NCBI RefSeq assembly: GCF_000188155.2
Contig: NZ_KE124774.1
Location: forward strand, 718,736 to 782,735
DNA length: 64,000 bases
Source of the DNA: Methylocystis sp. ATCC 49242
GTDB lineage: Bacteria; Pseudomonadota; Alphaproteobacteria; Rhizobiales; Beijerinckiaceae
Direction: 5' to 3'
Part shown: positions 37,501-64,000 of the stretch, piece by piece
Layout of the letters: the number at the start of each line of letters is the position of its first letter
Position numbering within the stretch: the stretch's first letter is position 1
Program-made: the position numbers and the translations under genes
The notes under the pieces: generated by a model
Seen by the model: only the letters and a program-made list of their open reading frames with translations
What the model was told of the DNA's origin: nothing
The model's database searches: none

Positions 37501-38625
37501 TTACTTCCCCGCTTCCGTGGCGACGACGTATTGATGGCGAGATTTCAGCGCGCTGATCATCAGCCAGGCGGCGACGCCGAGGCCAACGAAATGAGCGAAC
37601 AGCAGGCTGAAATTCACCAGCAGGACGAAGACGTCGAGCGCGCGGATGATCTTCACCGGATCAGTGATCGCTATGCCCGGCGGTTGCGACACCGTCTTGC
37701 CAATGAGAAGGGCGACGCTCAGTCCGACGCCCACAAAGGACGCGAGCGCGCCGAGGACATTGAAGAAGCCGCCGCTGCCGACGAACCAGAAGGACATGCC
37801 TCTCTGGTGGGAGAGGTAATGTTCCGGCCGGTTCCTTATCCGCGCCGCCGTCTTCATGTAATAAAATGAAAAAATCGTCGTCAGCGCCAGAAGCCCAATG
37901 GCCGCCGTCGCCCAGTAGATCGCATCCCCGAAACCGGAGGCGTCGGGACTGACCGTATGTCCGACATATCCGAAGACAAGAAGCACGGCTGAAACGACGC
38001 CGAGCAATAGCTGCAACCAGAAGGCTGTGGCGCCGAAGAAGCCGAAGCTGTGCGACAGACCGTCCGCGATCATGGCGGCGATGGTCGTCGGAGCGGGAAC
38101 CTCGACCGCCCGCGAGCCGGCAGGAGCCGCGGGGGCGAACCGGTCGAAGAGGGTGAAGGCGATATAGGCGATGATCAGGCCGGCCAGCGCATAGGCCGCG
38201 TAGCCATGAACGGTCTTCAGCAGATCCGCCAGCAACCGGTCGCCGCCATTCCAGTAGGGCAGGGGATAAGCCCAAAAGAAGATCTGTTCTCCGCGATAGG
38301 CCAGGGCGAGCGCTCCAGAAATCACCAGCGCGAGGAATGCGACATAAATCAGCCGACGCAGCCAGAGCGCCACGGTCTGCCGTCCGCTGCGAATCTCGAA
38401 TGCGCCAGCGAGCAGGAGCGCCGCGCCGAGCAGAAACTGCGCAAGAAGCAGAATCGCCGCCGAGAGGCCGAGCGACACATGCAGGTCCGCAAGATAGACG
38501 CGGGTTTGGTCCTCGGCGGGGAGATTGTTCAGACTCCATCCGACGCCGAGGACGCCGACGCAAAGGACGAGAAAAATCCAGAAAAGCGCGATTGCCGCGA
38601 TATTGCGCCTCGGATTGGAGTCCAT
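37501..38625 (-). CDS. membrane protein with b561-like N-half and DUF3611-like C-half
   Basis: A 374-residue polytopic membrane protein. The N-terminal half has about five spans with histidines in LADLHVSLGLSAAILLLAQF and LLKTVHGYAAYALAGLIIAY, like a cytochrome b561 domain. A linker (APAAPAGSRAVEVPAPTTIA) leads to the second half, LSHSFGFFGATAFWLQLLLG with further spans, matching the DUF3611 pattern seen in cyanobacteria and plants. AAGGGG lies eight bases before the ATG at 38625. Possible electron-transfer or quinone link through the b561 half; function unknown. The frame upstream of the start is not protein-like. Confidence 0.72.
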   Translation of the reverse strand: MDSNPRRNIAAIALFWIFLVLCVGVLGVGWSLNNLPAEDQTRVYLADLHVSLGLSAAILLLAQFLLGAALLLAGAFEIRSGRQTVALWLRRLIYVAFLALVISGALALAYRGEQIFFWAYPLPYWNGGDRLLADLLKTVHGYAAYALAGLIIAYIAFTLFDRFAPAAPAGSRAVEVPAPTTIAAMIADGLSHSFGFFGATAFWLQLLLGVVSAVLLVFGYVGHTVSPDASGFGDAIYWATAAIGLLALTTIFSFYYMKTAARIRNRPEHYLSHQRGMSFWFVGSGGFFNVLGALASFVGVGLSVALLIGKTVSQPPGIAITDPVKIIRALDVFVLLVNFSLLFAHFVGLGVAAWLMISALKSRHQYVVATEAGK

Positions 38626-38829
38626 TGGACAATCCCCTTTCAAAAAATCGCCTGACCGAATTCGAGGTCTCGCGCTGCTGCATTGCAAACTGTTGTAGAC
38701 GATAGGGCGCAAGCGCGCCCGGCGCCAGCGGAGATGATCTCGACGATGACGGAGTTGCCCCACGCGTCGAAGACGCTGCATGCGTTGACGATCATCGGAA
38801 TTTTCAATTGCATCAAGGGCGTTTGAGAC

Positions 38830-39177
38830 GTGAAAACCTTTGCCGTCGCAGTCGTCTGCGCCGCCGCGCTCGCTCTGGTTCCTGTCGCCATGGCCAAGGC
38901 TCCGGCAGGCGTCCCTCACAGCGGGTCCTATTCCGCAGCGCGCAAATTTTTGTTGAAGGGCGGCTGGAAGCCGGTTCATCAGCCGGACCCAGGCTTCAAA
39001 TGCCCGCCCGGCGACCAACGCTGCGAAGGGCGTCCGGAGACAGTGGATTGCGCGGGCACGGGTCTGGGAAATTGCATCTTCCGCTGGAAGCGGAAGGGGG
39101 TCGTCGTCGATGTGATGACCGCAGGCGAAACTGATCCACAAATCAATGGCGTGCGCTGCAAGAAGGGATGCAGGTAG
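38830..39177 (+). CDS. small secreted cysteine-containing protein
   Basis: A 115-residue exported protein. Signal peptide about residues 1-22 ([20 protein letters not shown] then MAKA). The mature part has six cysteines ([31 protein letters not shown]), which suggests three disulphides. The start codon is GTG at 38830. No family recognised. It lies between a divergent membrane-protein gene and tuf. Confidence 0.65.
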
Positions 39178-39310
39178 CCTCTTTCCGCGCATTGCCCGCC
39201 AGGCGGGGTTTCCTGAAAGTGGGCGATGCCCCTTGCGGATTCTCTCCATCCGCCTTAAAGGCTCGCCGCGCTGAAGCGTCTGAGACTTCGCGTCTAACCG
39301 GAACGGGACC

Positions 39311-40501
<1,191 letters not shown>

Positions 40502-40528
40502 TCGGCTCCCACACATGCAATTTGGAAG

Positions 40529-40554
40529 AAGCGCGGTTCGCCGCGCTTTTTTTC
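40529..40554 (+). terminator. intrinsic terminator of tuf
   Basis: A stem GCGCGG-TTCG-CCGCGC (40531-40546) followed by TTTTTTT. AAG before and CTT after extend the pairing. The mini-plug gene on the opposite strand ends just beyond it, so it may serve both directions. Confidence 0.9.
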
Positions 40555-40555
40555 T

Positions 40556-40861
40556 TTACCAGCAACCCGAGACGGTTACCCCCGGCGCGTAACGCAGCGC
40601 ATCGCAGATATTTCGGGCGTTGATGTCGTCCATCATCTTGCGCGTGATGACAGTCGCCGAGCCGGGGTAATCCATGATGGGAGTTCTGGTCCCGCCCGGC
40701 CCGGTGAGATAATTCGAGAAATAGCCGTCATCCGCCGGACCGGCGGGCGCGATCCGCCCCGCCTGCGCCTGACCGCGATAGAGGCGCTTCTGGCTCGCAA
40801 AAGCTTCGTCGATCGCGAGGGAAGCGCTCATCAGGGCGCATATCATCACTATTTCGCGCAT
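40556..40861 (-). CDS. small secreted protein made of a TonB-receptor plug fragment
   Basis: A 101-residue exported protein. A signal-like N-terminus (MREIVMICALMSASLAIDEA then FAS) is followed by a short spacer and a segment TRTPIMDYPGSATVITRKMM then DDINARNICDALRYAPGVTV, ending SGCW. This matches the start of a TonB-dependent receptor plug (x-x-PQSx-TVITxxxLxD...DALRYxPGV). The protein stops where the plug would continue, with no barrel. The partial receptor at the right end of the window has the corresponding TPIMDIPQSITIIT. It could be a truncated gene or a dedicated mini-protein. No trace of the missing barrel is seen downstream (the tuf terminator lies there). Confidence 0.65.
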   Translation of the reverse strand: MREIVMICALMSASLAIDEAFASQKRLYRGQAQAGRIAPAGPADDGYFSNYLTGPGGTRTPIMDYPGSATVITRKMMDDINARNICDALRYAPGVTVSGCW

Positions 40862-40902
40862 GGCCGTCGTCCTGTCACGCGCTTCATATAGGGCGTCGAC
40901 GC

Positions 40903-41799
40903 TCAGGCCGCCTCCACCGTCACTTCCACGATTTCCGGCGGGCGCATGAAGCGCACGGGCAGGATCGACTCGCCGAGCCCGCCCGAGATCACCAAATGGC
41001 GGTCGTCCTCGATGAAATGCCCGTAGATGTTCTTGGTGCGCCAGCGCAGTTCGGCGACGATCGGCCCCGCGAAAGGCAGGTTGACCTGCCCGCCATGCGT
41101 ATGGCCGCAGAGCGTCAGCGCCACACGCTTCGGCGTGCGGGAGAAAATGAAGGGTTCATGCGCCAGCATGATCGCGGGCGCGTCGTCCGTAAGCAGGCCG
41201 AGCGTCGCGTCGAGATTGTCGTGGCCTTTCCAGCCGATCTTCCCGCCCAGATAAAACGCCATCTGGTCGCCGAGGCCGAGCAACCAGAACGGTTGACCAT
41301 CCTTTGTGAGGCGCAGCGCATCGTTCTCGTAGACGCGCGCGCCCATCTGCTTCAGCGCGCGACGAACGCTTTCGGCTTCGTCGGGTCGATCGCTCGGCAA
41401 CGGCCCATGCCACCAGTCGTGATTGCCGAGCACGGCATGGACGCCCAGCGGCGCCTTCAGTTCAGAGAGCGCTTCGCCCCACTGCTGGGGCGTGACGGGC
41501 CCTGTCGTCAAATGCGTGCCGGCGGCGAAATCGCCGAGCAGCGCGACAAGGTCTGGCGAAAGCGCGTTGGCGACCCGTGCGATCTCGCGAATGCGCGAGA
41601 CGGGCATCCATGGCTCGCAGGCGTGGAGGTCGGTGATGACCGCGATGCGCAGCCGCAGCCCATGCGGCCAACCCTTGGGCGTGACGCGGTAGCGCGTCAC
41701 GTCGAGCATGAAGCCCGGTTCGATGAGGACCGAGTAGGCTCCCAACCCGGCGAGCGCAAGCCCGCCTGGCCAGCGCAGGAAATCGCGTCGGCTGATCAT
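40903..41799 (-). CDS. Tat-exported metallophosphoesterase
   Basis: A 298-residue calcineurin-like phosphoesterase with a twin-arginine signal MISRRDFLRWPGGLALAGLG. Metal motifs are AVITDLHACEPW (D, H), ALLGDFAAGTH (GD), AVLGNHDWWHG (GNHD), IMLAHEP and TLCGHTHGGQVNLP. This is the YkuE/YaeI-like group, whose members include lipid-related UDP-diacylglucosamine or phosphodiester hydrolases. The Tat signal places it in the periplasm or membrane. Substrate not readable. Confidence 0.9.
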   Translation of the reverse strand: MISRRDFLRWPGGLALAGLGAYSVLIEPGFMLDVTRYRVTPKGWPHGLRLRIAVITDLHACEPWMPVSRIREIARVANALSPDLVALLGDFAAGTHLTTGPVTPQQWGEALSELKAPLGVHAVLGNHDWWHGPLPSDRPDEAESVRRALKQMGARVYENDALRLTKDGQPFWLLGLGDQMAFYLGGKIGWKGHDNLDATLGLLTDDAPAIMLAHEPFIFSRTPKRVALTLCGHTHGGQVNLPFAGPIVAELRWRTKNIYGHFIEDDRHLVISGGLGESILPVRFMRPPEIVEVTVEAA

Positions 41800-41853
41800 G
41801 TCCCATCCCTGGCCGGCGCGGCCTGTGCCGTGCGCGGGGCAGGAGGCGTTCTA

Positions 41854-42066
41854 TCAGGCGGCGAGATGATCGCCCAGCAGAACCGGCGGAACGCGGCGAT
41901 CGTCGAGGCTGACCGGCTCTTCAACCGGCTTTTGAGGAAATTGCGAGACTTCGAGCGCGGCCGCGACGGCGGAGATGCCGATTTCGCGATAGAGGCGCGC
42001 GAGGAGATCGTGGGGGTGGCCGCCCGACGGGGACTGGTCGAACTCTACTGAAAACTGGTCGGTCAT
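41854..42066 (-). CDS. small hypothetical protein
   Basis: A 70-residue soluble protein. The central part HDLLARLYREIGISAVAAAL (about residues 19-38) resembles short conserved proteins of Rhizobiales of unknown function. It is not exported. A clean ATG lies at 42066. It follows the divergent DUF1499 gene region by about 220 bp. No function can be proposed. Confidence 0.55.
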   Translation of the reverse strand: MTDQFSVEFDQSPSGGHPHDLLARLYREIGISAVAAALEVSQFPQKPVEEPVSLDDRRVPPVLLGDHLAA

Positions 42067-42289
42067 GGCTGCCTCTGTTACTCGTGACGGATAACGCGGA
42101 GCGAATGTTTCAGGCGAATTTGTCCTTATCGCGTTAATGATGTGCTAATCGCGCCAAATGCGTTACCGCTTTGTTCTCCCGATTTTTGGCGGCCGCGCTC
42201 CGGCGTTGCAATTCCTCCCGCATTTGCGAAAAATGCGGGCCGGCGTCGCGCAAAAGCGCGGCGCTCGAGCTTCCCGAGGCTTTTGACGA

Positions 42290-43069
42290 ATGCGCCGACA
42301 ACTTCCGCAGGAGCCATGGTCGCAGGCCGCGCTGTGGAGCCGCAGCGTCGCCATTTTCGCGGCGACGGTGGCGGTTATGTCGATCATCCTCGCGCGCCTG
42401 CACGTCATCGAGCCGCCCTCGGCGCTCGCGGCGCTTGGGTCGGCGATGGCGCTGGCGCTCATCTCGCTGCTGCTGTTCTGCGCGGCCTGCTACGTCATCT
42501 GGCGAACCGGGCGCCGAGGGGTCGGGGCCGCTGTCGGCGCGGCCTTCATCGCCTGCCTGACGCTCGCTTATCCCGCCTATCTCGCCGTCGAGGCGATGCG
42601 TCTGCCGGTGCTGTCGGATATTTCGACCGACATCGCCAATCCACCCTATTTCTCGCTGTCGCGTGCGGCCTATCAGGCGCGGAAGGGCTTTCAGCCGCAG
42701 GGCCTGCCGGCGAAGGCGCGCGAGGCCCAGCGCTCCGCCTATCCGGACGTCGAACCGATCGTCGTCGATCTCGACTCAGACGAGGCGTTCGCGCTGGTGC
42801 AAAAGACCGCCAAGGCGGTGGGCTGGAAACCCATCGACCAGCGCGCCGCGGGTGGCCGGACTGGCGAGGGGCATCTCGACTTTCTCGACCGAACGCTTGT
42901 CCTGGGTTTCGACGAGGATATTACGGTGCGCCTGAAACCCCTGCCGGGCGGGCAGACGCGCATCGACATTCGCTCCGCCTCCCGCTATGGCCGACATGAT
43001 TTCGGCGCGAACGCGCGGCGGATTACCGCCTTCGCAGAAGAATTGCAGTCGCAGCTCGACAGCCGCTGA
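42290..43069 (+). CDS. DUF1499 membrane protein
   Basis: A 259-residue protein. Three N-terminal hydrophobic segments (VAIFAATVAVMSIILARLHV; ALISLLLFCAACYVIW; AAVGAAFIACLTLAYPAYLA) precede the DUF1499 domain: DISTDIANPPYFSLSRAAYQ, AYPDVEPIVVDLDSDEAFAL and IDIRSASRYGRHDFGANARR. DUF1499 domains have no firm function. The gene precedes pdhA by about 97 bp on the same strand, but a functional link is not suggested. Confidence 0.87.
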   Translation: MRRQLPQEPWSQAALWSRSVAIFAATVAVMSIILARLHVIEPPSALAALGSAMALALISLLLFCAACYVIWRTGRRGVGAAVGAAFIACLTLAYPAYLAVEAMRLPVLSDISTDIANPPYFSLSRAAYQARKGFQPQGLPAKAREAQRSAYPDVEPIVVDLDSDEAFALVQKTAKAVGWKPIDQRAAGGRTGEGHLDFLDRTLVLGFDEDITVRLKPLPGGQTRIDIRSASRYGRHDFGANARRITAFAEELQSQLDSR

Positions 43070-43165
43070 GCATTAAAGATTAGCGGGCGCACTCGTGTTC
43101 AATGCGGAACTTTGGTATTGTCGTGGCCGATCTCGAAGCGACGGACGGGAGGCCCGAAACAGCCG

Positions 43166-44167
43166 ATGGCGAACGATAGCAACGGCGCTAGCGCACCCGA
43201 GCCAATACCGGATTTCACGCGCGACGAGGAACTCGCGGCGTTTCGCGAAATGCTGCTCATCCGCCGATTCGAGGAGAAGGCCGGCCAGCTTTACGGCATG
43301 GGCGTCATCGCAGGCTTCTGCCATTTGTACATCGGACAGGAGGCGGTCGTCGTCGGCGTGAAGATGGCTGCGCGCGAGGGCGACCAGTTCACCACGAGCT
43401 ATCGCGACCACGGACACATGCTTGCGAGCGGCATGGACCCCAAGGGCGTCATGGCGGAGCTCGCCGGCAAACGCGGCGGCTACTCCAAGGGCAAGGGCGG
43501 CTCCATGCACATGTTCTCGCTGGAGAAGAATTTCTTCGGCGGGCATGGCATCGTCGGCGCGCCCGCGCCGATTGGCGCGGGGATCGCCTTCGCCAACGCC
43601 TATCGCGGAGAAGACAGGGTTTCGTTGACATTCTTTGGAGAGGGCGCCGCCAATCAGGGGCAGGTTTACGAAACCTTCAATATGGCGGCGCTGTGGAAGC
43701 TTCCCGTTCTCTTCATCGTCGAAAACAATCGCTACGCCATGGGCACCTCGATCGCCCGCGCTTCGGCGCAGAAGGACTTTTCGAGGCGCGGCGCCGCCTT
43801 CGCAATTCCCGGAAAGCAGATCGACGGCATGGACGTGCGCGTCGTGCGAGCGGCGGCCGCGGAAGCGCTCGACTGGTGCCGTAAGGGCAACGGCCCCTAT
43901 CTTCTGGAGGTGCAGACATACCGCTATCGCGGCCACTCCATGTCGGATCCGGCGAAATATCGCTCCAAGGAAGAAGTCCAGAAAATGCGCGAGGAGCACG
44001 ATCCGATCGAGCAGGTGCGCATTCGCCTCCTGGCCGACGGCGTGAGCGAGGACGAATTGAAGAAGATCGACGCCGCGGTTCGCAAGATCGTCGCAGAGGC
44101 GGCGGATTTTGCCGTGAGCGACAAAGAGCCAGATCCCGGTGAGCTCTGGACCGATGTGGTGGCGTGA
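43166..44167 (+). CDS. pdhA: pyruvate dehydrogenase E1 component, alpha subunit
   Basis: A 333-residue E1-alpha. LAAFREMLLIRRFEEKAGQL, GFCHLYIGQEAVVVGVK and the GGKGGSMHMFSLEK-like phosphorylation-loop region are typical. The TPP/Mg motif reads FFGEGAANQGQVYETFNMAA (residues about 157-176) then VENNRYAMGT; the usual GDG is GEG here, as in branched-chain E1-alpha. With PdhB it decarboxylates pyruvate and acetylates the lipoyl group. The start ATG at 43166 is the normal one (MANDSNGASAPEPIP). pdhB follows after 12 bp. Confidence 0.95.
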   Translation: MANDSNGASAPEPIPDFTRDEELAAFREMLLIRRFEEKAGQLYGMGVIAGFCHLYIGQEAVVVGVKMAAREGDQFTTSYRDHGHMLASGMDPKGVMAELAGKRGGYSKGKGGSMHMFSLEKNFFGGHGIVGAPAPIGAGIAFANAYRGEDRVSLTFFGEGAANQGQVYETFNMAALWKLPVLFIVENNRYAMGTSIARASAQKDFSRRGAAFAIPGKQIDGMDVRVVRAAAAEALDWCRKGNGPYLLEVQTYRYRGHSMSDPAKYRSKEEVQKMREEHDPIEQVRIRLLADGVSEDELKKIDAAVRKIVAEAADFAVSDKEPDPGELWTDVVA

Positions 44168-63595: not shown

Positions 63596-64000
63596 ATGAC
63601 GCCTGTTTCCTTGCCCGCGAAGCGTATTCGTCGCCCCTTGGTCAGCCTCTGCGCGCTCAGCGCCGCATTGGCGATTTATAACGACGCTGCGCGGGCCCAA
63701 CAGGTTTTGCCCGGTATCGACGTCGGCGGACGCCGTCAGGTTTCAAGGTCGGGAACGCCGCGCGCGGCGGCGCCCAGAACTTCGGCTCCCGCAGTCGCCG
63801 CTTCCTCCGGGCCTGCGGTTCCCGGTCCCGCCTCGGGCCCGGCTCCCTTCGTGCCGCCAGGCCAGCATATCTGGCGCGGGCCGACCGGCGTCGTCGGCTA
63901 TCTGGCGCGCGGCACCTCGACCGCGACCAAGACCGACACGCCGATCATGGACATTCCGCAGTCCATCACGATCATCACGCAGCAGCAGCTTCAGGACCGC
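63596..64000 (+). CDS. TonB-dependent siderophore receptor, 5' part only (runs off window)
   Basis: 135 codons are visible. Signal peptide about residues 1-36 (RPLVSLCALSAALAIYNDAA, then RAQQ). A Pro/Ala/Ser-rich linker follows (TPRAAAPRTSAPAVAASSGP), then VVGYLARGTSTATKTDTPIM and the plug start DIPQSITIITQQQLQDR, where the window ends. This is the typical opening of the siderophore receptor group, which imports ferric siderophores with TonB/ExbBD. The 240-bp upstream stretch is AT-richer and probably carries its promoter, but no definite Fur or Irr box was recognised. Confidence 0.88.
   Translation, partial: MTPVSLPAKRIRRPLVSLCALSAALAIYNDAARAQQVLPGIDVGGRRQVSRSGTPRAAAPRTSAPAVAASSGPAVPGPASGPAPFVPPGQHIWRGPTGVVGYLARGTSTATKTDTPIMDIPQSITIITQQQLQDR

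Follow-up and report, generated by a model that had tools for sequence, protein, structure and literature searches.

A short exported protein homologous to the start of TonB-dependent transporter plugs recurs in four genera and is kept by selection

For TonB-dependent transporters (TBDTs), it has long been debated how much of the plug domain moves out of the barrel when TonB drives transport, and by what means the outer membrane stays sealed. Force applied through TonB unfolds a mechanically weak half of the plug (PMC5413942, PMC10994204), a subdomain that comprises residues 20-83 in FhuA and 23-73 in BtuB (PMC5413942) and reaches residue 215 in FpvAI (PMC10994204). In addition, a plugless barrel is partly restored when a soluble FpvAI plug is supplied in trans (PMC10994204), which argues that a free plug can dock. 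Here we analyze a stretch of 64,000 nucleotides from Methylocystis sp. ATCC 49242 (contig NZ_KE124774.1, positions 718,736 to 782,735), referred to below as the window, in which a 101-residue open reading frame (ORF) at 40556-40861 of the minus strand encodes an exported protein homologous to the start of such a plug. We call this protein, and its relatives in other genomes, mini-plugs.

The plus strand of the interval holds an unrelated frame; on the minus strand the translation is MREIVMICALMSASLAIDEAFASQKRLYRG...TPIMDYPGSATVITRKMMDDINARNICDALRYAPGVTVSGCW, followed by a stop codon. A sequence-only reading of the window had described a mini-protein with an intact frame built from the start of a receptor plug; the ORF with its start and stop was confirmed, and it matches the Pfam Plug family (PF07715). 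Residues 62-98 align with profile positions 2-38 of 107 (E value of 1.3e-6), and the score of 29.3 bits, above the curated cut-off of 23.9, identifies the protein as a PF07715 homologue; four other family members score 26.8-38.9 bits, and those from other lineages cover only profile positions 2-36 to 2-37. The plug domain is incomplete, its second half being missing, and no outer-membrane beta-barrel domain was found nearby or in the ORF itself, which ends after the plug start. Pfam reports Plug only, with no STN or other signaling domain, and the NCBIfam matches are receptors aligned at the plug. After a signal-like start and a basic linker, the mini-plug is the beta-alpha-alpha-beta beginning of a plug only, and this layout of signal peptide, linker and plug start is common to all homologues.

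The stop codon of the mini-plug lies 54 bases from that of the convergent tuf gene, so that a barrel has no room downstream, and a search of window positions 38000-44000 with 108 receptor proteins detected no barrel remnant, with nothing beyond the mini-plug better than an E value of 0.008; the lack of such a remnant, also part of the sequence-only reading, is thus borne out. The same gap and search rule out a split receptor continuing nearby. The genuine receptor that had been placed near 63596 is present and carries TPIMDIPQSITIIT; it is cut by the end of the window, and its frame in the whole genome has 836 residues. The genome itself measures 4.7 Mb and contains 17 other plug matches.

Orthologues of equal short length occur in more than 75 genomes in total. 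Short homologues with the same end point on the plug were found in 24 of the 39 Methylocystis genomes, of which some carry two copies and 20 have subfamily A, the type at the tuf/PDH locus, and in 7 of 10 Methylosinus genomes, including M. trichosporium OB3b (G201), whose mini-plug gene lies at positions 2464052-2464321 of contig 1 on the minus strand. A third genus of the same family, g64, has them in 5 of 15 genomes, one with an in-frame stop and one with an altered C terminus. Genus g68, which belongs to another family and is probably Bradyrhizobium (an inferred label), carries the gene in at least 41 of 118 genomes at a strict threshold, with one copy per genome and nearly all proteins ending in TAGVTIGR. 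Recurrence of this short protein across four genera makes its occurrence far more than chance, and its C-terminal end falls at one fixed plug position across genera of two families. Beyond these genera, no clear short homologue appeared in samples of 385 genomes of the class, 398 of the phylum and 297 of the order, in which the best candidates per genome were scored, and none was recognized among the matches listed from plasmid records. Eleven loci were inspected in Methylocystis genomes that lack the copy at tuf; the flanking gene order is retained in nearly all of them, and none contains a remnant.

The substitution pattern likewise marks the mini-plug as a real gene that is kept by selection. 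The ratio of nonsynonymous to synonymous substitutions (dN/dS, omega; Nei-Gojobori) is 0.15-0.28 in the plug part and 0.4-0.6 in the signal peptide plus linker. By lineage, plug-part omega is 0.17 in Methylocystis subfamily A (bootstrap, 0.08-0.29), 0.21 in Methylosinus (0.11-0.35) and 0.14 in g68 (0.07-0.20). Purifying selection acts on the plug part, with bootstrap intervals far below 1, and relaxed selection of the kind expected for a pseudogene was not seen at these values (0.14-0.21). As a separate observation, the g68 genes (e.g., L144-L171) have a proportion of synonymous differences (pS) of 0.31 in the plug part and 0.47 in the signal/linker region, as if an extra nucleotide-level constraint acted on the former.

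These results bear directly on the possibility, raised in the sequence-only reading together with orthologue and dN/dS checks, that the gene is decaying. We reject decay because several findings contradict it: many orthologues share one short length, purifying selection is strong, the ribosome-binding site and a promoter-like element are conserved, no remnant lies downstream, and the gene is either cleanly present at the locus or cleanly absent from it. Broken copies do occur as occasional pseudogenes, namely, L071 (the second copy in G035, with an internal TAA) and L098 (in G280, with an internal TGA), and they indicate that some copies are lost; as an explanation of the family, a decaying receptor fragment or annotation artifact is nevertheless extremely improbable.

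Besides its length, the family has signatures of its own. Glycine follows a conserved proline in 76 of 77 distinct mini-plugs but in none of the 108 comparison receptors, which were chosen for their similarity to the mini-plugs. A TonB-box-like motif, sought with one crude pattern in both sets, occurs in 0 of 76 mini-plugs versus 56 of 108 receptors. The mini-plug of the window shows all the features by which we define the family: Pro-Gly, an end at plug position ~38, and no TonB box. Cysteines are absent from 49 mature mini-plugs, number two in 26 and three in one; in subfamily A and some g64 members, one cysteine of the pair belongs to the second helix and the other lies at the C terminus, and these positions suggest that the paired cysteines form disulfides. 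In subfamily C (L068, L069, and L205) both cysteines are located in the linker region, as though a disulfide had arisen at another place. A tree of 42 alignment columns, with the Pro-Gly column left out, places the Beijerinckiaceae mini-plugs in one cluster and those of g68 in another, each near the receptors of its own family; a single clade of all mini-plugs is not rejected (approximately unbiased test, p-AU of 0.73). A limited search of open papers found no published stand-alone plug or half-plug family, and the mini-plugs apparently represent a family undescribed so far.

A second proposal of the sequence-only reading was a plug mimic, small in size and located in the periplasm. As a description of the family this is supported, but the accompanying idea of TonB titration is disfavored because the motif is absent from all mini-plugs scanned and present in about half of the receptors. 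More generally, the protein could compete for plug-handling factors (TonB, ExbD, or chaperones of the Bam/SurA type), as its retained plug-type sequence would allow; this is unlikely, given that the motif is lacking and that the linker, where a TonB box would lie, belongs to the region that varies (dN/dS of 0.4-0.6).

A possible reading, which we put forward tentatively from the sequence comparisons, is that the mini-plug is a TonB-blind half-plug in the periplasm whose docking in TBDT lumens would modulate, damp or reseal those transporters. Mini-plugs arose from the 5' end of TBDT genes and are now kept by selection. Once exported, the protein would act in the periplasm and dock inside the lumen of a TBDT barrel, or of several, in place of the weak half-plug, the piece that TonB pulls out to open the pore. 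The mini-plug itself presumably could not be pulled, as it lacks a TonB box and in some lineages probably contains a disulfide; such an undraggable plug might then damp or reseal transporters that stand open. Somewhat more doubtful is the broader proposal that a diffusible, TonB-blind copy of the half-plug seals or throttles TonB pores in trans, constituting an undescribed gating layer of the outer membrane that may have evolved twice.

Gene context lends modest support to the docking reading. In G250 (L311, 4491-7381), the mini-plug gene lies beside genes for a receptor, PepSY, a PiuC-like protein, ExbB, ExbD, and TonB, in convergent orientation; in G025 (L315, 8377-15111), it is divergent from a receptor gene followed by two PiuC-like genes, ExbB, ExbD, and then a TonB-sized ORF. 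Both are complete TonB uptake loci, alike in make-up. The broken copy in G280 has genes for PepSY, a sigma-like factor, an FecR-like protein, and a receptor in its vicinity. The chance of finding three TonB-adjoining contexts in ~14 is near 0.01 (a rough binomial with 17 receptors per 4.7 Mb).

Several points weigh against docking. The number of contexts (~14) entering this estimate is our own judgment, and in most lineages, including that of the window, the mini-plug gene is not adjacent to TonB genes. Its proximity to a receptor in G250 may reflect descent from that neighbor rather than function. Furthermore, the FepA plug, when isolated, behaves like an unfolded protein (PMC11658791) and the nonlabile half of FpvAI alone did not restore function (PMC10994204), so that half-plugs may not dock. 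AlphaFold2 predictions are also of low confidence, with a mean pLDDT (predicted local distance difference test) of 57 for the full protein and 51 for residues 42-101.

The G280 locus bears on yet another function, also named in the sequence-only reading, that of a signaling partner that would, for example, report TBDT opening to a pair of extracytoplasmic function (ECF) sigma and anti-sigma factors. The protein is small and exported, and sigma-like and FecR-like genes lie near the G280 mini-plug, though that copy has an in-frame stop. With no STN domain and no conserved linkage to sigma factors, we consider a signaling role quite improbable. Elsewhere, the neighbors are tuf/PDH genes in Methylocystis, mutS and an acyl-CoA dehydrogenase gene in Methylosinus, and GGDEF-EAL and metallo-beta-lactamase-like genes in g68 (product names assigned by inspection). 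An operon partner common to all genera was not found, and because the neighbors differ between genera, no partner gene is implied.

These unlinked loci are among the observations that favor the closest rival, namely, that a co-opted plug fragment, related to plugs by origin only, has taken on a new envelope role apart from TonB transport, for example that of a small adaptor or chaperone in the periplasm, a binder of metal, or a peptide at the surface. The missing TonB box, the divergence from receptors seen in the Pro-Gly change and the paired cysteines, and the lack of an iron-regulator box among the conserved upstream elements (by inspection) point the same way. Against it, the conserved residues are plug residues, the C-terminal end does not shift along the plug between genera of two families, and three contexts adjoin TonB transporter loci. 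Such a TonB-independent role is possible, and nearly as likely as docking in TBDT lumens.

Whichever role applies, a natural gene for the removable half of the plug, without a TonB box and under strong selection, offers a direct handle on what leaves the barrel and what seals the membrane. Mutants have been made in the methanotroph Methylosinus trichosporium OB3b (PMC9601215), which is itself a mini-plug carrier. Moreover, short ORFs annotated as TonB receptor plugs, easily dismissed as fragments, can be genuine genes.

The features of the locus are collected in Table 1. In addition to these, a 70-residue ORF without a Pfam match (window 41854-42066, minus strand) is conserved at the Methylocystis tuf/PDH locus, where it stands directly upstream of the mini-plug gene or of the metallophosphoesterase gene. 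The tuf gene is often repeated in proteobacteria, and this repetition may account for the many draft contigs of relatives that break off near the mini-plug.

Table 1. Features of the mini-plug locus, in window coordinates
Feature	Position	Strand	Basis or remark
tuf, convergent with the mini-plug gene	39311-40501		Stop codon 54 bases from that of the mini-plug gene
GC-rich hairpin plus T tract, terminator-like, between convergent tuf and mini-plug genes	40530-40553		By inspection
Mini-plug gene, 101-amino-acid exported protein	40556-40861	-	ORF, Pfam, orthologues
Cys100, second of pair, beside C terminus	40562-40564	-	Homologue comparison
Receptor-plug homologous region, residues 42-98	40568-40738	-	Profile comparisons
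Pfam Plug match, residues 62-98	40568-40678	-	PF07715
Cys86, first of conserved cysteine pair	40604-40606	-	Homologue comparison
Signature Pro66-Gly67 (receptors: Pro-Gln/Arg/Lys)	40661-40666	-	Mini-plug versus receptor comparison
Linker (residues 23-41), basic and variable, lacking a TonB box	40739-40795	-	dN/dS, motif scan
Signal peptide, residues 1-22 (AxA-type cleavage site, between ...DEAFA and SQK)	40796-40861	-	By inspection
Shine-Dalgarno-like AGGACG	40868-40873	-	AGGAGG in most subfamily A orthologues
TATATG element, putative promoter, -10-like	40885-40890	-	Conserved upstream of subfamily A genes
Metallophosphoesterase gene, same strand as mini-plug gene	40903-41799	-	

The nearest solved relatives by sequence are 5nec, 5fok, and 5fp1, siderophore receptors of the PiuD/PiuA type, and the enantio-pyochelin receptor 3qlb. 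Compared with the plug of a TBDT (PF07715), the mini-plug is homologous over ~57-60 residues at the plug start, and both are exported; the mini-plug, however, stops at profile position ~38 of 107, without the second plug half, the barrel, and the TonB box, and it has glycine after the conserved proline and either paired cysteines or none. Profiles of the family align to FhuA chain residues 20-80, BtuB 24-55, and FpvA 142-198, and in all three receptors this stretch falls inside the mechanically weak half-plug. That half-plug is part of a receptor, whereas the mini-plug is a separate gene product. A further parallel is the engineered FpvAI 1-276 supplied in trans (PMC10994204), like the mini-plug a free periplasmic piece of plug; yet the engineered protein contains the full plug together with the TonB box and the signaling domain, whereas the natural mini-plug is only part of a plug.
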